A stretch of 64,000 bases of DNA from Thiofilum flexile DSM 14609. Lineage in GTDB: Bacteria > Pseudomonadota > Gammaproteobacteria > Thiotrichales > Thiotrichaceae. The position numbers were made by a program, and so were the translations under genes. This document shows, piece by piece, positions 5,143-45,656 of the stretch. Where the stretch lies: the NCBI RefSeq assembly GCF_000380185.1, contig NZ_KB904817.1:43801-107800 (forward strand). The letters are read 5' to 3'. Position 1 is the first letter of the stretch; each line of letters opens with the position of its first letter. The notes beneath the pieces are model-generated. The model ran no database searches. It was not told the DNA's origin and saw only the letters and a program-made list of their open reading frames with translations.

Positions 5143-5511
5143 ATGATCCAGATGCAATCAATTCTGCAAGTGGCAGACAATAGTGGTGCACGCAAAGTAA
5201 TGTGCATTAAAGTATTAGGTGGTTCGCATCGTCGTTATGCTAATATCGGCGACGTTATTAAGGTGAGCATTAAAGATGCTAACCCACGTGGTCGTGTTAA
5301 GAAGGGCGATGTGTATAACGCTGTTATTGTGAGAACCGCCAAAGGTGTACGTCGCCCTGATGGTTCAGTGATTCGCTTTGACTCTAATGCAGCTGTTATT
5401 TTAAACAACAAATTAGAGCCATTAGGTACTCGTATCTTTGGACCAGTGACACGCGAGTTACGTGGCGAGCGTTTTATGAAAATTATTTCATTGGCTCCTG
5501 AAGTACTGTAA
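5143..5511 (+). CDS. rplN: 50S ribosomal protein L14
   Basis: 122 residues beginning [21 protein letters not shown], of which [10 protein letters not shown] is the family signature. L14 sits at the subunit interface and forms intersubunit bridge B8 with 16S rRNA; RsfS binds it to silence ribosomes. First gene of the spc block. ACGGAGAG provides a good ribosome binding site. Confidence 0.98.
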
Positions 5512-5524
5512 GAGAGATAAGACA

Positions 5525-5842
5525 ATGAACAAGATTCGTAAAAATGACCGAGTAGTCGTTGTTACTGGTAAAGACAAAGGTCGTCAAAGTACCGTTTTGC
5601 AAGTGTTCGCGAATGGTAAAGCCTTAGTGCAAGGCGTGAACATTGCAAAAAAACACCAAAAGCCTAATCCTAACTTAGGGATTCAAGGTGGGGTGATTGA
5701 AAAAGAAATGCCCATTCAAATTTCTAATTTGATGGTATTGAACCCAAGTACTAACAAGGGTGAACGTGTTGGATTTAAGATTCTGGACGATGGCAAAAAA
5801 GTCCGTGTATTCAAATCCAACGGTGAGCGTGTAGACGCTTAA
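5525..5842 (+). CDS. rplX: 50S ribosomal protein L24
   Basis: 105 residues with the KOW motif near the start ([15 protein letters not shown]). L24 is an assembly initiator that binds the 5' end of 23S rRNA. It lies 13 bases after rplN and 20 before rplE. Confidence 0.98.
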
Positions 5843-5862
5843 TATTAGGTGAAATTTAAAAC

Positions 5863-6402
5863 ATGACAAGGTTGCAAGACTATTATCGGAATACTGTCGT
5901 TAGCGAGTTAACGAATAAGTTCGGATATAAAAATGTAATGGAAGTCCCTAAGATCACTAAAGTAACCCTGAATATGGGGTTAGGTGAAGCCGTAGGTGAC
6001 AAGAAAGTAATTGAACACGCGGTCGCGGATATGGCAAAAATATCCGGTCAAAAGCCTGTCGTCACTTTATCACGCAAGTCTATTGCGGGATTTAAAATTC
6101 GTGACAACTGGCCTATAGGTTGTATGGTGACCCTGCGTAGCGACGTCATGTATGAATTCATTGACCGTTTGGTGAATGTTTCTATCCCTCGCATTCGTGA
6201 TTTCCGTGGTTTGAATCCAAGGGCATTCGATGGTCGTGGTAATTTCAATATGGGTGTAAAAGAGCAAATCATTTTCCCCGAAATTGATTACGATAAAATT
6301 GATGCATTGCGTGGTATGAATATCACTATCACTACTACTGCAAAAACGGATGAAGAAGGCCGCGCTTTATTAGCTGCTTTCAAATTCCCATTCAGACAAT
6401 AA
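5863..6402 (+). CDS. rplE: 50S ribosomal protein L5
   Basis: 179 residues, the same as E. coli L5. Typical segments are [17 protein letters not shown] and [19 protein letters not shown] (shown here as separate short blocks). L5 binds 5S rRNA in the central protuberance and forms bridge B1b to S13. It lies between rplX and rpsN in the usual spc order. Confidence 0.98.
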
Positions 6403-6414
6403 GGACACGAAACC

Positions 6415-6720
6415 ATGGCAAAGAAATCCATGATTGCTCGTGAGGTGAAACGTAAAGAAGCGGCTACTAAGCATGCTGAAAAACGTGATGCTCTCAAGAA
6501 AATCATTGCTAGCCCTGCTTCTAGTTATGAAGCAGTGTTAGAAGCTGTAACAGCTCTACAAAAGTTACCTCGTGACTCTAGTCCAGCACGTCAACGTCGT
6601 CGTTGCAACTTGACAGGTCGTCCACATGGCGTCTATCGCAAATTCGGCTTATCACGTAATAAACTGCGTGAAGCGGCTATGCGTGGTGATGTTCCGGGCT
6701 TAACGAAAGCTAGCTGGTAA
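6415..6720 (+). CDS. rpsN: 30S ribosomal protein S14 (zinc-free form)
   Basis: 101 residues starting [15 protein letters not shown]. It is the long form without the CxxC-x(n)-CxxC zinc ribbon; only one Cys is present in the conserved [21 protein letters not shown] region, split here as [12 protein letters not shown] and YRKFGLSR. S14 completes the 30S head near S3 and S10. No second zinc-type S14 is seen in the window. Confidence 0.97.
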
Positions 6721-6732
6721 GAGGGCTAAATC

Positions 6733-7128
6733 ATGAGTATGAGTGATCCTATCGCGGATATGTTGACGCGCATTCGTAACGGTCAACGTGCGAGTAAATT
6801 AAAAGTATCGTTTCCTGCATCGAAACAGAAAACGGCTGTCTTAAATGTTTTAGAAGCTGAGGGCTATGTTGCTAGCCACAGTACTGAAGCTAATGACGGC
6901 AAACCTACTACTACTGTGGTATTGAAATATTTCCAAGGTAAACCGGTTATTAGCCGTTTGACTCGTGTGAGTCGTCCGGGCTTACGGATTTTCCGTGGTA
7001 AAACTCAATTACCAACTGTATTAGGTGGTTATGGTATCGCTATCGTTTCAACCTCTCAGGGTGTGATGAGTGATCGTGCAGCACGTGCTGCAGGTCAGGG
7101 TGGCGAAGTTATCTGTATCGTTGAGTAA
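6733..7128 (+). CDS. rpsH: 30S ribosomal protein S8
   Basis: 131 residues starting [18 protein letters not shown]. Both ATG 6733 and ATG 6739 are possible; the family norm of about 130 residues and the GAGGG 10 bases upstream do not fully separate them. S8 binds central-domain 16S rRNA and in E. coli is the feedback repressor of the spc operon acting near rplE. C-terminus GGEVICIVE is typical. Confidence 0.97.
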
Positions 7129-7140
7129 TAGGCTAACTGT

Positions 7141-7677
7141 ATGTCAAGAATTGCAAAGCGTGGCCTTGATTTACCAAATGGTATACAGGTCACTATGGAT
7201 AAGCGAGTCATGACGGTGAAGGGTGCTAAAGGTGCTCTTACCTTAGATGTGCATGATTCTGTAGAAGTAGTTATCGACGGTTCACATCTGTCTTTCCGTC
7301 CACAAAGTGAGCAAGCCGAAAATGGTTGGGCGCATGCAGGTACTGCTTGTGCGTTAGCCAATAATATGATCAAAGGCGTGTCTCAAGGTTTTGAGAGAAA
7401 GTTGTTACTGAGTGGGGTTGGTTATCGTGCTCAAGCGCAAGGTGACAAACTGACCTTAAGTTTAGGTTTCTCCCATCCGGTTGTGCATAACATGCCAGCA
7501 GGTATTACCGTTGAGACGCCTAGTCAAACTGAAATTATCATCCGTGGCGTTGATAAACAGAAAGTCGGACAAGTAGCGGCTGAAGTTCGTGCGTATCGTC
7601 CACCAGAGCCTTACAAGGGCAAAGGTGTGAAGTACTCCGATGAACAAGTGCTCCGTAAAGAAGCGAAGAAGAAGTAA
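7141..7677 (+). CDS. rplF: 50S ribosomal protein L6
   Basis: 178 residues with the two repeated alpha/beta domains of L6 and the conserved C-terminal signature RPPEPYKGKGVKY. L6 lies near the sarcin-ricin loop and the stalk base. It starts 12 bases after rpsH; no obvious strong ribosome binding site is seen, which suggests coupling to upstream translation. Confidence 0.98.
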   Translation: MSRIAKRGLDLPNGIQVTMDKRVMTVKGAKGALTLDVHDSVEVVIDGSHLSFRPQSEQAENGWAHAGTACALANNMIKGVSQGFERKLLLSGVGYRAQAQGDKLTLSLGFSHPVVHNMPAGITVETPSQTEIIIRGVDKQKVGQVAAEVRAYRPPEPYKGKGVKYSDEQVLRKEAKKK

Positions 7678-7687
7678 GGTAATCTAG

Positions 7688-8041
7688 ATGGATAAGAAAC
7701 TGAGTCGTATTCGTCGTAGCAAACGTGCTCGTGCGAAAATGCGCGAATTACGTGTTACCCGCTTATGTATACATCGCACACCACGCCATATCTATGCGCA
7801 AATTATTGCTCCAGAAGGCAATGTGGTATTAGCGAGTGCTTCTACGATTGATAAAGAGTTGCGCACAACTCTGTCTTATACTGGTAATGTCGAAGCGGCT
7901 GCTGCTGTGGGCAAATTAGTGGCACAACGAGCGAAAGAAAAAGGTATCGAGTCTGTTGCGTTTGACCGCTCTGGTTTTAAATACCATGGTCGGGTTCAGG
8001 CGCTAGCTGATGCTGCTCGTGAAGCTGGTTTGCAATTTTAA
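7688..8041 (+). CDS. rplR: 50S ribosomal protein L18
   Basis: 117 residues, as in E. coli, with [16 protein letters not shown] and the C-terminal [20 protein letters not shown] split blocks ([23 protein letters not shown]). L18 binds 5S rRNA together with L5. It lies 10 bases after rplF and 12 before rpsE. Confidence 0.98.
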
Positions 8042-39271: not shown

Positions 39272-40540
39272 ATGTATTTAAGCCCCCCCAGTCTGTTGGA
39301 TACCCAATCCATTGGCGATGCCTTTTTATCTTTACACGAACACGCGGGTTTTACCCGTCTTCCTCCTTCTTCTTTACTGCATGATTCGGTGCCTATGTCT
39401 TTTGTGATGAGTGCTGGCTTGATTCAGGTAGAAAATGAGCTGGAAAATATTGTGTTAAAAACAGGGGGGAAGTTTGCATTTACCCAGCCCTGTTTTCGGC
39501 ATTTTGATATGGGGCAGGTAGGGGTTGATCCCACGCGCTTAAGTTTGTTTCATATGTCGGCTGCTTTTCATATTGGTTCGAGTGAGCGAGCTACGGTATT
39601 ACCCCGTCTATGGTTGTTTTTAACTCAAGTATTAAAGTTAGACCCGCAATGCTTATGGATTAGTTATTTGGATGATCCAGAGTTAGGGCGAGATGAGGCG
39701 AGTTATGAGTGTTGGAAAGGTTTAGGGGTAGATGAAGCACATTTAGTCGGTATGGATCAGGAACATTGTTTTTGGCGACAGCGCTCAACAGGACAGATTG
39801 CCAGTGATGGTAAAAAGTGTGGGCCGCATACGGAAGTGTTTTATGAGCGCGAGGTGGAGGGGTGTCCTCATTGTGCAAACAGAGCTAGGGCGTTAGGAGT
39901 ATGTCGTTGTGGGCGCTTTGTAGAGTTAGCTAATTCTTTGTTTATAGAGAATTATATTGATGATACTGGGCAGTTGATAGCGGCGGATACGGTGTTTGCA
40001 GAGTGTGTGTTGGGATTAGAGCGAGTGGAAATGGTGCTGCGTGATTTGCCGAGTGTTTATCATATTCGGCGCTTTGACACATGGCGAGCGATGTTGATGC
40101 CACTGTTACCTAATCCATCCAAAGAAGCAGAGCAGTCGTTGGCGGTGATTTTGGATCATTTATCAGCCTTTGTGAAACTGACTGAGGATGGAGCGCCTGC
40201 ACCTGGGCGTGGGGGTAGGGCAGCCATTATGAGAAAGCTTACCCGTTCAGCGATAACAGAGACCTTATTATTGGGTTTAGATTTTAATTTACTAATAAAT
40301 CAACTCCTCAAGGAGCATAGTTCATTTGAGTTATTAAAAATAGAGTGCCAACGTTTTACCCTTCATTTAGAAAAAGTTAAAAAGCTTATAAAACAGTATC
40401 CCTCAAATACATTAACTATCGAGCAGTATCAAGCTTTGCAGAAAAACCATGGTATCTCAGAGAGATTAATCCGTTATTTTCAAGTACGCATTCAAAATGA
40501 GACTTTAGTAAAAGATACTTTGTTAGGAGCTAGTTTATGA
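39272..40540 (+). CDS. Alanyl-tRNA synthetase-like catalytic core, stand-alone
   Basis: 422 residues. The class II synthetase core of AlaRS is recognisable: FVMSAGLIQ near residue 45, a motif-2-like segment with R89, the CGPHTEVFYE block at 183-192 (AlaRS has CGPCTEIFYD), VELANSLF, and motif 3 LGLERVEMVL with R251. The segment DHLSAFVKLTEDGAPAPGRGGR matches the AlaRS helical region in outline. The editing domain and C-Ala domain are absent, so it is half the length of a true AlaRS. An inserted CPHC-x9-CRC cluster (198-213) suggests a zinc site. By my alignment, the Asp that reads alanine is Glu244. The stop overlaps the next start (ATGA). Function unknown; an amino acid-activating role is inferred. 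Confidence 0.75.
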   Translation: MYLSPPSLLDTQSIGDAFLSLHEHAGFTRLPPSSLLHDSVPMSFVMSAGLIQVENELENIVLKTGGKFAFTQPCFRHFDMGQVGVDPTRLSLFHMSAAFHIGSSERATVLPRLWLFLTQVLKLDPQCLWISYLDDPELGRDEASYECWKGLGVDEAHLVGMDQEHCFWRQRSTGQIASDGKKCGPHTEVFYEREVEGCPHCANRARALGVCRCGRFVELANSLFIENYIDDTGQLIAADTVFAECVLGLERVEMVLRDLPSVYHIRRFDTWRAMLMPLLPNPSKEAEQSLAVILDHLSAFVKLTEDGAPAPGRGGRAAIMRKLTRSAITETLLLGLDFNLLINQLLKEHSSFELLKIECQRFTLHLEKVKKLIKQYPSNTLTIEQYQALQKNHGISERLIRYFQVRIQNETLVKDTLLGASL

Positions 40541-43500
40541 GTACCATAGAGGAAGTAAAAGATAAAAAAGAAAGAAATGATTGGAGTAAAGCAACTAAGC
40601 TCATTAGTGATTTGCAAATGCGTATTGATGATGAGGGTATAACAGATGAAGGCTTGCTGAAAAAATTTACTAATGTTGATTTTCTTCCTATACCCAAAAG
40701 TGAATTAACTGTTATTTATCACTCAAACTTAAATCGCTACAAGGTTTTAATATTCAAAGGGAAGCAAGAACAAGAGCAAGAGCAAAAGAACTTAGACTTA
40801 GATAGCTATCCTGATATCCCAAGCTCAACTAAAGAAGCTATTAAGAAAGTAATTAATGATAAAAAAATAATAAATGTTTCTTTAAGCAGTGATGATGAAT
40901 CCATTTTATTTGGAGGATATCGTAGCCTTGCTATTGTTCCTATGCGTGTAAGTGAAAATCGTATTATAGGAGCATTTTTAGTAGGGCATTACGAGTTAGA
41001 CTCTTATAGCCCTGATGATGTAAATTTTGCTGATACGGTATCAGATCGTATTGCCCTATTAGTCCGTAATATTCATCAATCAAATCGAGCAAAAATATAT
41101 CGAATATTTACAGATGAATTAACCAGAAACCTCATTGGTTTTGATGAGGAGTCTCAAATATTTCAAAGAATCGTTCATTATTTAAATAAGCCATTTGGTC
41201 CAGATTTTGAATGGTTTGATAAAAAAGAAATTAATATAATCCTTAGGCATCCTTTTAAGAAAGAAAGATATTACCCTGTTTGTATTGATGGAGAGGTAAA
41301 TAATAATTTTCGATCCTTAAGTGATGATAATCAAAAATTTAAACGTGCAAATGCTTTAGGTGAGTTAGCTGCTAAAAATAAAAATCAAGTAAAATATTGC
41401 ACTACAAAAAGTGAGTGTGAGGATTTAGGTAGTTTGGAGTTAAAATCTTGGATTTCAGTACCTTTTCTAGTAGGAAGCAATAGAAATGTTGGTTATTTAA
41501 TTTTAGCTAGCTGTTGTGAAGAGCATGCCTATGATAATGAAGAAAATTTATTGAGTAATATTGCTCTTTTTGCTATTTCAGTGTGGATGAATTATCGACG
41601 TGATCAGGGAGCTAAGGCGCTTGATAACTTCAGAGAGGATTATGTTCATAATAACAAATACAAAAACGTAGATAAAGCTCTATATAATGGGTTTAAAGGA
41701 AAAATAAAAGAGCTATATGATGAAGTAAAAATTGAGGTTATATATAGAGATAGAAGAACAGATGGATATAGCTTTATTTTTCCAGATAATATGGAAAATA
41801 ATATCGTATCAGGTAATCTTCTTACTAAGCTGGAGAATAATATTTACAATACTGAACCATTTTTTTATGAAGAAAACTATATTATACCATTGAAGTATGA
41901 AAGTGGAATTAATACAAATTTTATTCTAATTGAAGCTGATGATGAGGAAATCGGTAAAAATACTAGAGGATTTATATATGAGTTAAGCCAGTGGATTCAG
42001 TTTAAGCAGTCATTATATGGAAAGGAAGAGCGGCAAAAATATTTGAATGAATTTGGTGAAAAAATTACTGAGAATGCTTATGAGAGCTTAGGTGCTGCTT
42101 TTGATTTGGTTTATAAGACAACTAGCCAAGTAATGTATACTCAAAGTATGTATATAGCACTTTATGATAAAAAAGATAATATGATTAGTTTTTCTTTGTT
42201 TTATCAAGATGGTAAAAAAAGAAATGATGTACAAAGCCGATCTTTAAATTTAAATAAAAAAGGTCGTACAGAAGAGATAATATTAAAAAAAGAACCTATT
42301 TTTATATCAACCGCTGAAGAATCAGAGAAATGGTATAACGAGCCTGGTGAAAATCGAGATGAGAAAATTGGTGATTATTATGCCTCATGGGTAGGCGTAC
42401 CTATTTTAAATAATAAAGAAGCAATAGGGGTTATTGCAACTTATCACCCAACAAAAGACTATTTGTATTCGAGGGAGGATATTACTTTTCTTGAAAATAT
42501 TGCTTCACAAGTTTCCAATTTGATCAGTAGAATTAATTTGAAAAAAGCTAATCAAGAATTGAAAAAAGCTAACCAAGAATTGGAAAAAGCTAAAAGTGAT
42601 ATAAGTATATTGGAAAATGAAAAAACTCGAAGAGTTACTATTAGAAAAGTAGAGTCTATTTTTTCTGAAAGTTTAGATGAGACAAAAGATCTTCTGGATG
42701 CAGCTACAGAAGAAATATCTAGCACCTATGATAGAGATAAATATCCTAGCTTAGATACACCTCTTGAAATGATAAATCAGGCATTAGAGTTTTTAAAGAA
42801 AATAAATACTAAATTAGCGAATATAAAAGAAATTACAAGAAATAAAAATACTTATATAAATTCTTATTTTTTATTGCGATCGGCTATTAATGATGAAATT
42901 AATGAAAGAAATATATCTAATTATGTAAGTTTTTTAGATAAAACAGATGATAGTAAGAATGACTGCTTTTTTGTTTTTATTAATGAATACAATCTACAGT
43001 CAGTATACTATTTGATTATAAATTTAATTTTAAATAAATTAAGCGATGTATATAATAATAGAAACCAAGGAAAAAAAATTCTTCTTTCATACAAACTTAT
43101 TTGTCATGATGATTATATAAACATAATTATTGCCATTAATGATTTTATAGATAATTTTATAAATATAGAGGATTCGATAGGCTTTATTAAGGCAAGGGAA
43201 ATATTGAAAGATATTAATGATAGTACGTTGGTCGTTACTAAATTTAAGGAGAATGAAAAGCTTGAGTTTAGTGTTGATCTTATGAAGAAAAAATATAAAT
43301 ATAGTTTTTATATTCTTGTTGAAAATATAGCTTATAAAAATAAATTGTATGGTTTTATTGAGGAAAATGGTTATGAGGTTTATAAAATAGATAGTTTAGA
43401 TGGTATAGATATAAATAAAAAATATTGCCTAATAATTGATAAAAATTTTCTAGATAAAAATGATGAAAATGTAGATTTCTTAAGAAATATAAGAGGGATA

Positions 43501-43626
43501 TTTTATCTTTACCTTATATTTTCAGAAGATAATCAAAAAATAGAAGTTATTAAAAATAAAACATTATTTATAAAAAGAAATGAAATTAGTAATAATATTA
43601 TCTTGAATGAGTCATTTTTCAAATAA
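40537..43626 (+). CDS. Multi-GAF protein with degenerate kinase and receiver-like C-terminus
   Basis: 1029 residues, AT-rich codon use unlike the neighbours. Two clear GAF-type modules near 30-180 and 190-355 (each ending with a V-P-L...G.L pattern such as IVPMRVSENRIIGAFLVG), a weaker one near 365-490, and another at 500-665 (VGVPILNNKEAIGVIATYH). A coiled coil with the tandem KKANQEL repeat follows (665-700). Residues 700-915 resemble a histidine-kinase dimerisation and ATPase region, with an N-box-like IINLILNKLSD at 827-837, but no phosphoacceptor His or G-boxes. Residues 922-1029 resemble a receiver domain (ILVEN, then LIIDKNFL with D968) lacking one acidic-pair residue. Likely a ligand-sensing scaffold rather than an active kinase. 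Coupled to the AlaRS-like gene. Confidence 0.65.
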   Translation: MSTIEEVKDKKERNDWSKATKLISDLQMRIDDEGITDEGLLKKFTNVDFLPIPKSELTVIYHSNLNRYKVLIFKGKQEQEQEQKNLDLDSYPDIPSSTKEAIKKVINDKKIINVSLSSDDESILFGGYRSLAIVPMRVSENRIIGAFLVGHYELDSYSPDDVNFADTVSDRIALLVRNIHQSNRAKIYRIFTDELTRNLIGFDEESQIFQRIVHYLNKPFGPDFEWFDKKEINIILRHPFKKERYYPVCIDGEVNNNFRSLSDDNQKFKRANALGELAAKNKNQVKYCTTKSECEDLGSLELKSWISVPFLVGSNRNVGYLILASCCEEHAYDNEENLLSNIALFAISVWMNYRRDQGAKALDNFREDYVHNNKYKNVDKALYNGFKGKIKELYDEVKIEVIYRDRRTDGYSFIFPDNMENNIVSGNLLTKLENNIYNTEPFFYEENYIIPLKYESGINTNFILIEADDEEIGKNTRGFIYELSQWIQFKQSLYGKEERQKYLNEFGEKITENAYESLGAAFDLVYKTTSQVMYTQSMYIALYDKKDNMISFSLFYQDGKKRNDVQSRSLNLNKKGRTEEIILKKEPIFISTAEESEKWYNEPGENRDEKIGDYYASWVGVPILNNKEAIGVIATYHPTKDYLYSREDITFLENIASQVSNLISRINLKKANQELKKANQELEKAKSDISILENEKTRRVTIRKVESIFSESLDETKDLLDAATEEISSTYDRDKYPSLDTPLEMINQALEFLKKINTKLANIKEITRNKNTYINSYFLLRSAINDEINERNISNYVSFLDKTDDSKNDCFFVFINEYNLQSVYYLIINLILNKLSDVYNNRNQGKKILLSYKLICHDDYINIIIAINDFIDNFINIEDSIGFIKAREILKDINDSTLVVTKFKENEKLEFSVDLMKKKYKYSFYILVENIAYKNKLYGFIEENGYEVYKIDSLDGIDINKKYCLIIDKNFLDKNDENVDFLRNIRGIFYLYLIFSEDNQKIEVIKNKTLFIKRNEISNNIILNESFFK

Positions 43627-43638
43627 AAGGTTTTTGTC

Positions 43639-45135
43639 ATGAATGAGATATCTGTTTTATTTGTGAAAGAGTCAAGTAGAGTATATTGTGATGAGGATTT
43701 TATTTTTTACTTTTCCATATTAGTTGGGAAAATAGTTAAAAATAAATTAGCATTAGAGAAAGTTAAGAGATTTTCTGATCAATGTATTGTTGTGCATAAT
43801 GTTTATTGTAAAGAAACTGAAAGATTTTACAAAGAATGGATGAAGTCTCAAGGATTAATTCATAAAAATTTAAATAGCTATGTGAATATTGAGAAAAATA
43901 ATAAAGTAAGAAAGCCATTCATTTATTCTGACTTTTTTGCGTCCCCCAATGTAGACGAAGATGCTAGGGATGATGTAAAAAGAAAAGCTTGGGAATTATC
44001 ATTAGAAAATATGATAAATAGAAGACATCGGTTTTGTGTGATAAATAATTTAAACGAAGTCCATATTAGCAATATGACAGATATATTTACGAATGACTAT
44101 CAATATAGAATTAATAGATTTTTAAAGGAAAAATCAAAAACGGATTATCATATAATAACAATTAACACGTTTCATGATTGCGATTCCATATTAAAATTCA
44201 TTTCAAATAAGAATTATTTAAACGATTTTATTATAGTTAGGGAGGGCAGTGATTCTTGTTACTCTTCCTTAATAAGTAATAATTTTCTATCTAATATTAG
44301 CTTTAGATCTATCTCTATCATTTCTAAAGAAGATACTCATGCAGCAAAAACAACACCAAATGGTTTTTTCTTTCCTGAAAAGAAGATTTTCTTTATAAAA
44401 AAGGAAAAAAATGAAAAAATTATAAAAAATGCAATAGATAGGTGGTCTAAGCTCTATGTATGTTCTCCTTCTTGTTATTTTACTTATGGTGAGAAAGATG
44501 GTTTACATGAGGAGATGGAGAAAATGAACAAGCTTATTAAGCGATTTTATCCATTTTTCGATTTTGTAAAAGATAAGGATAATGGTAACAGCTTTATGAA
44601 TATAGATAAATATTCAAATAACTTATTTAAAGCTGATATTGTTATTCATATAATAGGGTCAGAGTATCTAAAATCTTTTTACTGCATGCGAGAGCTTGTA
44701 AAGACATTATTAAATAAAGGGCTTATTAGCGATTCTCAAACTAGCTCAGAAACAAAAGATTTTAGTAACATCACAAATTATGGATGTATACCCTTATTCA
44801 CAAAAGAAGCTAAAGAAATAATTTTTGAAAATAAATTCGATATGTTAAGTTTTTGGGAAAATGAGTTAGAAAATACTAGTTTTCCAAAAGAAGATGTTAA
44901 TCTTATAGTTAAATTACTTCCTCAAGCAAAGGATTTGTTTAATAAAACTTATTCTTTTAAAACACTTGAGGGGTTTTCTGAAGAAGATTATGTTGATATA
45001 TTCTTTTTTTTAGGGAAAGCATTAAATAATTATTCAGAAATAGGTTATTCGAATATATACTCAAGTTATCAGAGTGTAGATGATTTTAGGCTAATGGCCC
45101 GTAATATTATAAAATCGGAGATGCTATTAGCATAA
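43639..45135 (+). CDS. TIR-domain protein
   Basis: 498 residues, AT-rich. The C-terminal part (about 268-460) matches a TIR domain: first strand KLYVCSPS, then FKADIVIHIIGSEYLKS and FYCMREL, where E352 sits in the position of the catalytic Glu of NAD-cleaving TIR domains, then CIPLFTKEAKEI. The N-terminal 265 residues are not recognised; they may be a sensor or adaptor domain. It starts 12 bases after the GAF protein gene, so the three genes form one operon. Bacterial TIR proteins commonly act as NADases or cyclic ADP-ribose makers in antiviral defence; activity here is inferred. Confidence 0.65.
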   Translation: MNEISVLFVKESSRVYCDEDFIFYFSILVGKIVKNKLALEKVKRFSDQCIVVHNVYCKETERFYKEWMKSQGLIHKNLNSYVNIEKNNKVRKPFIYSDFFASPNVDEDARDDVKRKAWELSLENMINRRHRFCVINNLNEVHISNMTDIFTNDYQYRINRFLKEKSKTDYHIITINTFHDCDSILKFISNKNYLNDFIIVREGSDSCYSSLISNNFLSNISFRSISIISKEDTHAAKTTPNGFFFPEKKIFFIKKEKNEKIIKNAIDRWSKLYVCSPSCYFTYGEKDGLHEEMEKMNKLIKRFYPFFDFVKDKDNGNSFMNIDKYSNNLFKADIVIHIIGSEYLKSFYCMRELVKTLLNKGLISDSQTSSETKDFSNITNYGCIPLFTKEAKEIIFENKFDMLSFWENELENTSFPKEDVNLIVKLLPQAKDLFNKTYSFKTLEGFSEEDYVDIFFFLGKALNNYSEIGYSNIYSSYQSVDDFRLMARNIIKSEMLLA

Positions 45136-45212: not shown

Positions 45213-45656
45213 TCAGATCCTAATAATCACCCACGCTAATACAACTAAAAGCAGCATCCCTAAATAAAAAGGCCAGACTGCCAATGATGAAAGTGCTTTT
45301 AAGAAAGTACTGGGTAACTTCCCGTCTGTTGTAACACGACATAAATCATTAACAATTAATTGCTCGTTATTTAATTTATCCAAAAAACATTGATAAGCAT
45401 TCCGAAACTGCTTCTCTAGTGCTAAGTAATAAGCATCTAAAAAACAAAATAAAATAATAGGAATACCCGCCAATATAGCTGCACTCGCAATACCCTTTTC
45501 TGCAACTAGCACCATAATAGCAGAGACTAAACCAATAGCCCATTTCTTACATTCACCACTATTAGTAGCCATACGAACAATTAGATTTTGATAAATCTCA
45601 ATATGCTTAATAATAGCAGGAGAGTCGATGCGTAAAGGTAAGTTTAAGTTATCCAT
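45213..45656 (-). CDS. Small membrane protein, unknown function
   Basis: 147 residues with hydrophobic segments at about 41-56, 58-75 and 124-146 separated by a basic cytoplasmic-looking stretch YYLALEKQFRNAYQCF. I recall similar small proteins as conserved hypotheticals in accessory regions, but cannot name the family. It converges on the TIR gene and is less AT-rich. It might be an effector or immunity partner of the island, but convergent direction argues against simple co-expression. Confidence 0.65.
   Translation of the reverse strand: MDNLNLPLRIDSPAIIKHIEIYQNLIVRMATNSGECKKWAIGLVSAIMVLVAEKGIASAAILAGIPIILFCFLDAYYLALEKQFRNAYQCFLDKLNNEQLIVNDLCRVTTDGKLPSTFLKALSSLAVWPFYLGMLLLVVLAWVIIRI

Follow-up and report, generated by a model that had tools for sequence, protein, structure and literature searches.

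Modification of proteins and metabolites is a known activity of paralogues of the aminoacyl-tRNA synthetases (aaRS), among them EpmA/PoxA, HisZ and AsnA. Lactyltransferase activity has been described for AARS1/2 (PMC12467997, PMC12143591), and lactylation of the immune sensor cGAS by eukaryotic AARS2 has been reported (PMC12467997). Among bacterial conflict systems, the ternary MoxR-vWA systems employ MoxR as a platform (Kaur et al., 2020, PMC7159879). No description was found of a bacterial conflict system that is built around a synthetase-derived enzyme. Presented here is the analysis of a three-gene operon in a 64-kb stretch of DNA (the window) from Thiofilum flexile DSM 14609. The operon encodes a protein related to the catalytic core of alanyl-tRNA synthetase (AlaRS), a putative sensor with four GAF-like domains and a protein with a TIR domain. 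In this operon and its relatives the synthetase-like gene varies least, whereas the genes that follow it, for the sensor and the predicted killer, are swapped.

At the sequence level, the operon appears to be a new modular TIR conflict system. It may be of the abortive-infection or programmed-death type, with an AlaRS-like acyl-activating core, a reading to which a probability of about one half is given. PADLOC has no model that matches any of the three genes, and a full-text search of open-licence papers found no earlier description of this gene set. Thus, the suggestion of a candidate new system, made in a first-pass annotation by a model that saw only the sequence, stands.

Operon arrangement and distribution

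The three open reading frames (Table 1) are all on the forward strand. Genes 1 and 2 overlap by 4 bases, and genes 2 and 3 are separated by a gap of 12 bases, exactly as the first-pass annotation had placed them. The genome of the window is 3.79 Mb in size and is closely related to those of Thiothrix and other Thiotrichaceae. The AlaRS-like gene is found in 10 of 63 genomes of the Thiothrix family and the GAF sensor in nine, all nine being among the 10 carriers of the AlaRS-like gene (hypergeometric 4e-10, kinship ignored). In the tenth genome, G004, the AlaRS-like gene sits at a contig edge. The AlaRS-like gene is immediately followed by the GAF gene in every locus with a continuing contig (9/9 loci: the window, G331, G325, G328 with a broken frame, the transposon-interrupted G021, G014, G005, G024 and contig L042). 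Because it is conserved in relatives, the arrangement is not due to chance. The first-pass annotation had proposed a search for co-occurrence in varied genomes, the lack of which was to speak against its proposal; the genes do recur together in other genomes, so far members of the Thiothrix family rather than varied genomes. Flanking genes are unlike between most loci, which points to many chromosomal sites for the operon; two pairs of loci, L034/L042 and G328/G329, have a common site.

No further member was detected in a phylum-wide sample of 398 genomes, and 150 genomes from the family of a Gallionella metagenome-assembled genome yielded only the fragment already known. In the Gallionella genome itself (L048:5180-9032), an N-terminal AlaRS-like remnant of ~106 residues is located directly beside DndC and a DndD/PbeC-like gene. 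Viral contigs had no relative of the AlaRS-like protein or the TIR protein, and phage records and plasmids had no match to the TIR protein; thus nothing in the collections searched points to dissemination by known phages or plasmids. A transfer to Thermodesulfovibrionales was considered for contig L042 (JAGUWT010000003.1, 1-1679) and rejected, as the contig is 95.8% identical over 1679 bp to a Thiothrix-family locus. Its assignment to the Thermodesulfovibrionales bin is most likely an error. Three assemblies break within the AlaRS-like gene (L004 at its start, L049 and L045 at their ends), and strain mixtures or repeated 5′ parts may be the source of these breaks.

The G+C content is 43% in gene 1 and in the window, and 27% in genes 2 and 3. 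A drop along the operon is seen in all seven loci measured (43/27/27 in the window and 50/39/31 in G331, for example). Low G+C and divergence, as displayed by the operon genes, are typical of conflict genes. At the RNA level, there is no tRNA in the 64-kb window, no Rfam family at the operon and no conserved leader upstream of it, and therefore no evidence for a dedicated RNA substrate.

Constant core and exchangeable cassette

Residues 1–250 of the AlaRS-like protein are 75–98% identical among the Thiothrix copies and 56–64% for the more distant ones of G005 and G024. Among the Thiothrix copies, identity is 39–61% over residues 252–335 and 10–48% in the tail that follows. Between loci, the GAF proteins are 21–34% identical and the third proteins 12–24%. 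The ratio of non-synonymous to synonymous substitution (dN/dS) is about 0.03–0.08 in the constant AlaRS-like part, with strong purifying selection on codons 10–250. In codons 251–335 it is about 0.2–0.35 where it can be estimated, with some dS values saturated.

The boundary is clearest in the pair of loci L042 and L034 (G325), which represent two close Thiothrix strains. The upstream flank and the first ~254 codons have about 96% DNA identity, after which identity collapses; synonymous divergence climbs from 0.18 to 2.6 past the breakpoint at codon ~254. The GAF and third genes of the two loci show no DNA match and encode proteins that are about 20% identical. This is an exchange, at one site, of a cassette consisting of the C-terminal part of the AlaRS-like protein, the GAF protein and the effector. 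That the AlaRS-like tail is swapped together with the GAF protein and effector suggests that the tail is matched to its own GAF protein. The inclusion of the AlaRS-like residues after ~250 in the swappable cassette is an addition to the model of the first-pass annotation, and the presence of a small membrane protein in the neighbourhood (see below) is another.

The AlaRS-like enzyme

Gene 1 matches the Pfam family tRNA-synt_2c (PF01411) over residues 14–374 with an E value of 5e-29 and 101.6 bits (cut-off 30.3), and its best AlaRS structure matches are 9jc7 and 9jdn (E = 2e-20). The description of a stand-alone AlaRS-like catalytic core is thereby confirmed. The score against the NCBIfam alaS equivalog is 94.8 bits, below the cut-off of 457, and a separate, normal AlaS of 877 amino acids is encoded in the same genome. 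The AlaRS-like proteins form a clade distinct from ordinary AlaRS (branch support 0.999).

In the AlaRS of Methylomonas, ATP is bound by Arg68, Phe89 and Arg232; Val204 and Leu219 shape the AlaRS pocket, and Asp235 of the Escherichia coli enzyme contacts the α-amino group (PMC12143591). The lactate binders of E. coli AlaRS are M43, R69, W170, N212, D235 and G237 (PMC12467997). The G3:U70 pair of tRNA-Ala is read by N303 and D400 (PMC10036535). Nine AlaRS-like copies were compared with 16 control AlaRS and AlaRS-related proteins. The motif 2/3 ATP residues R69, F90 and R242 are invariant in all nine copies, and W170 and N212 are also kept in all nine. The pocket has the changes M43L, V204L, D235E and G237V in 9/9 copies, and L219 is replaced by A or N; D235 and G237 are present in 16/16 control sequences. 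Eight copies extend as far as positions 303 and 400, and every one of them has lost N303 and D400, with R, Q or K at 303 and K, R, Q, A or a gap at 400; the ninth copy, that of G329, is a truncated one. Gene 1 of the window keeps the ATP residues as R76, F93 and R251, and its pocket changes are L223, A238, E244 and V246.

Judged by these residues, the AlaRS-like protein very probably does not ligate tRNA-Ala, and very probably its enzymatic use of ATP persists. Kept ATP residues, a changed amino-acid pocket and the loss of N303/D400 together point to an enzyme that probably still adenylates but serves an acceptor different from tRNA-Ala. The idea that the enzyme activates or modifies something, put forward in the first-pass annotation, gains support from the same ATP and tRNA-identity positions. 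A four-Cys insert in the constant part (Table 1) is a possible zinc knuckle that would bind metal. With its combination of E in place of D235, V in place of G237 and no N303/D400, the residue signature eases the finding of further members and makes the chemistry testable.

Stand-alone, plasmid-borne proteins of Streptomyces and Peribacillus annotated as 'alanine--tRNA ligase-related' were weighed as possible members and excluded: D235, G237 and mostly N303 are retained in them, and their annotated neighbours show no GAF or TIR genes. Short AlaRS-like genes on plasmids of Exiguobacterium and Peribacillus (L051, L052) are found with S66 peptidase, ATP-grasp and MFS genes, and these clusters look as if they serve to make an AlaRS-targeting compound and confer self-immunity.

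The GAF sensor and the TIR protein

Gene 2 matches Pfam GAF (GAF_2, E = 2e-21, 77 bits), and its structure model reveals four GAF-like units joined by helices. Foldseek matches of the model are to the tandem GAFs of PDE5/6 and to phytochromes, as well as to 5w10 (with cAMP). The fourth GAF of other copies is 39–44% identical to that of the window, and the rest of the sensor 8–29%. The sensor of the window has no Pfam match to HATPase_c or Response_reg, whereas both match in four of the six relatives scanned. The H-box (DLTHRxNNS), the N and G boxes and the receiver residues DDE...D...T are found in most of G325, G014, G005 and G024. Overall, kinase and receiver are intact in 4/7 copies and degenerate in those of the window, G331 and L042. 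Given the intact versions in four relatives, the pseudokinase condition is a derived state. Degenerate kinase and receiver regions, as initially described, are thus a property of the window's copy and not of the family.

Pfam gives no match for gene 3. At the structural level, residues 277–465 of its model give a Foldseek TIR match with a probability of 1.00. A VIA-align comparison, which spanned model residues 275–469 only, aligned 157 residues to 4c6t (RPS4/RRS1 TIR) with a Z of 12.9 and an rmsd of 3.4. The pLDDT is mostly 50–86 in the TIR region and <50 for residues 1–167; the N-terminal region has a receiver-like appearance, for which no claim is made as the model there is poor. The glutamate of the plant-like TIR motif [YF]xxSxxxxxE (predicted catalytic Glu352 in the window) is kept in all seven TIR-type third proteins. 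Both the TIR fold with Glu at the NADase position and the conservation of this residue in homologues, the absence of which was to have spoken against the first-pass proposal, are therefore borne out.

TIR-type third proteins are present in 7/10 loci, a count that includes the G328 fragment in its broken operon, G329 (on another contig of the same genome) and G018 (at a contig end). Neither the third protein of G325 nor that of G005 was matched credibly by a TIR profile, and in that of G014 the match was limited to the tail. Because three loci carry third proteins without the TIR motif, the output protein is exchangeable. As first proposed, TIR is the output in the seven loci; across the loci it is one output among several. 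The third protein of G005 (L038:9632-11374) and the next small open reading frame have a 'NINIADGGDFxQ'-like motif in common, and a similar N-rich stretch is present in the third protein of G325.

Neighbouring membrane protein and a second TIR locus

At the 3′ end of six operons (window, G331, G328, G021, G014 and G024), a small membrane protein of the PADLOC family PDC-M50A is encoded convergently with the TIR gene, and a relative is located beside the TIR gene in G018. PDC-M50A-like proteins also adjoin varied TIR systems (L041, L101, L102, L103, L105), including TIR-MoxR, TIR-STAND and ROC-COR-LRR-TIR. The ROC-COR-LRR-TIR protein that has such a neighbour is encoded in the window's own genome. 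This distribution suggests that PDC-M50A-like proteins are a general TIR-associated membrane partner.

A second locus of Thiothrix eikelboomii (G024), L106 (G024:C16:178000-191000), encodes a TIR protein, an ATPase of the bpMoxR family (33.6 bits, cut-off 27) and proteins of 333 and 903 amino acids. The 903-aa protein (ORF 5206-7917) has a GAF domain that shares 43–51% identity with the fourth GAFs of several sensors, and a whole third-protein type with its TIR is fused behind this domain. In hhalign, the third-protein part has a probability of 97.8 over 272 columns with a score of 95.8; shuffled controls scored ≤20.4, and other TIR proteins 22–58 over 77–92 columns. The fusion protein has no PADLOC match. 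Judged by this fusion, the GAF sensor and the TIR effector are likely to be one functional unit, which would be used with MoxR too.

Table 1. Positions in the window of the operon genes, their parts and the adjoining membrane protein gene
Feature	Position	Strand	Remarks
AlaRS-like gene (gene 1)	39272-40540	+	422 aa open reading frame; class II catalytic core, without editing or C-Ala domain
Constant part of AlaRS-like gene	39272..40021	+	codons 1-250
Four-Cys insert	39863..39910	+	C198, C201, C211, C213 (CPHC...CRC); present in clade alignment
Variable C-terminal AlaRS-like part	40022..40537	+	5′ end of swappable cassette
GAF sensor gene (gene 2)	40537-43626	+	1029 aa; four GAF-like domains, helix, degenerate histidine kinase, degenerate receiver
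Fourth GAF domain	42058..42531	+	about aa 508-665; best conserved part of sensor
Degenerate histidine kinase and receiver region	42544..43623	+	no H-box His, acidic pocket incomplete; from alignment with intact versions
Third-protein gene (gene 3)	43639-45135	+	498 aa; N-terminal region of unknown fold, then TIR domain, tail
TIR domain	44467..45033	+	aa 277-465
Predicted catalytic Glu352	44692..44694	+	motif YLKSFYCMREL
Small membrane protein (PDC-M50A)	45213..45656	-	147 aa; PADLOC E 1e-27; hydrophobic segments

Proposed function

The proposed mechanism starts from what is observed at the level of sequence and fold, namely operon conservation, the residue signature, the TIR fold with its Glu, the cassette swap and the GAF-TIR fusion. 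The purifying selection on the AlaRS-like core, the low G+C and divergence of the operon genes and the Gallionella remnant beside DndC and a DndD/PbeC-like gene also speak for it. The AlaRS-like protein would be the constant core enzyme, which takes up ATP together with an amino acid or an acid of similar kind and makes an acyl-adenylate. The acyl group would be transferred not to tRNA-Ala but, most likely, to a side chain of the GAF or TIR partner, and this transfer would set the state of the system. The variable C-terminal part is probably a docking surface for its own cassette. The four-GAF protein, ancestrally a GAF-histidine kinase-receiver hybrid and in the window a pseudokinase, would serve as sensor and signal relay. 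The TIR protein would be the output, which after release or oligomerisation may cleave NAD+ and stop the cell. We infer the trigger, the ligand, the acyl transfer, the NADase activity and the role in phage defence, and the interpretation given in the first-pass annotation is, overall, partly supported.

Several points weigh against a conflict system with an acyl-activating core. Apart from fragments, the system has so far been found only in the Thiothrix family, and in the surroundings of the window the PDC-M50A protein is the sole hint at defence. The third proteins of G325, G014 and G005 (3/10 loci) are without the TIR Glu motif. The D235E change could lower or abolish amino-acid activation, and acyl transfer to a partner protein is proposed by analogy with EpmA-type paralogues and the AARS lactyltransferase.

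Perhaps the operon is an acylation-gated switch for immunity or self-killing, in which the synthetase-derived enzyme activates an amino or hydroxy acid, modifies its own sensor or effector with it and so holds or releases the TIR NADase. This more specific proposal is tentative and somewhat unlikely. If true, it would be a bacterial parallel to AARS2 and cGAS, with the enzyme as a constant hub and sensor-effector cassettes swapped behind it.

The replacement of the alanine pocket residues in every AlaRS-like copy also suits another function, in which the protein is a non-turnover sensor of the ATP, amino-acid or uncharged-tRNA state, or a decoy that an invader attacks instead of AlaRS; the GAF-TIR pair would be freed when the protein is lost or changes conformation. 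The variable C-terminus changes along with the GAF protein, as a docking partner would. However, the invariant R69, F90 and R242 and the low dN/dS of the core (0.03–0.08) exceed the needs of a simple decoy, and this explanation is considered unlikely.

Members of the Thiothrix family are sulphur bacteria, largely filamentous, and the operon is nearly limited to this family. In addition, polymorphic cassettes at a fixed site resemble allorecognition loci. This raises the question of whether the operon, rather than defending against phages, lets filaments tell kin from non-kin or undergo developmental cell death, with the GAF protein reading an internal signal. Such a role seems improbable: the AlaRS-like remnant adjoins phosphorothioation defence genes, the PDC-M50A family is drawn from a list of defence candidates, and the GAF-TIR pair is common to a MoxR-type conflict operon.

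It is quite unlikely that the AlaRS-like enzyme makes a diffusible aminoacyl- or acyl-nucleotide and that the fourth GAF binds this messenger and switches the TIR protein. The kept ATP site and lost tRNA identity are in keeping with such a messenger, as are the high conservation of the fourth GAF and the nucleotide-binding GAFs (5w10 with cAMP, PDE5/6) among the structural matches of the sensor. A related GAF, however, works in a MoxR-type operon where no AlaRS-like gene is seen, and therefore the GAF ligand need not come from the AlaRS-like enzyme. That the gene is an ordinary truncated alaS duplicate, by chance beside a TIR operon, would explain its short length and the missing editing and C-Ala domains, but is disfavoured as very improbable by the normal 877-aa AlaS in the genome, by the separate clade (support 0.999) with its fixed residue signature and strong purifying selection, and by the GAF gene that adjoins it wherever the contig continues.

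The constant AlaRS-like gene offers a direct genetic way to ask whether TIR immunity can be controlled by the activation of an amino acid or acyl group.

Comparison with known systems

The MoxR-vWA systems resemble the present one in their exchangeable effectors, which include TIR, in their fast-changing modules and in their multicellular hosts; moreover, the GAF-effector fusion of L106 shares an operon with a bpMoxR-family ATPase. They differ in that neither MoxR nor vWA is encoded in the present operon or its neighbours, where an AlaRS-like enzyme is found instead. Also, no histidine kinases are reported among the effectors associated with vWA (PMC7159879), whereas the present sensor has kinase regions. 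Thoeris, TIR-SAVED CBASS, SPARTA and TIR-STING have a TIR effector with a conserved Glu as well, but their partners ThsA, CD-NTase, Ago and STING are not recognised in the operon. With the PADLOC phage defence candidate PDC-M50, the likeness is in the convergent membrane protein, which matches PDC-M50A. Just this one gene matches, however; it is on the opposite strand in the window, and its relatives are found beside several unrelated TIR systems.

GAF hybrid histidine kinases have the same order of GAF, kinase and receiver, intact in 4/7 of the present copies. The output of the operon, in contrast, is a TIR protein and not a transcription regulator, and kinase and receiver are degenerate in the window. 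EpmA/PoxA, HisZ, AsnA and the AARS1/2 lactyltransferases share with the AlaRS-like protein the use of a class II core beyond tRNA charging. They differ in having another synthetase parent or a full-length AlaRS, and a modification is in the present case one that we infer. AARS2 and cGAS nevertheless provide a precedent for an AlaRS that acts on an immune sensor.

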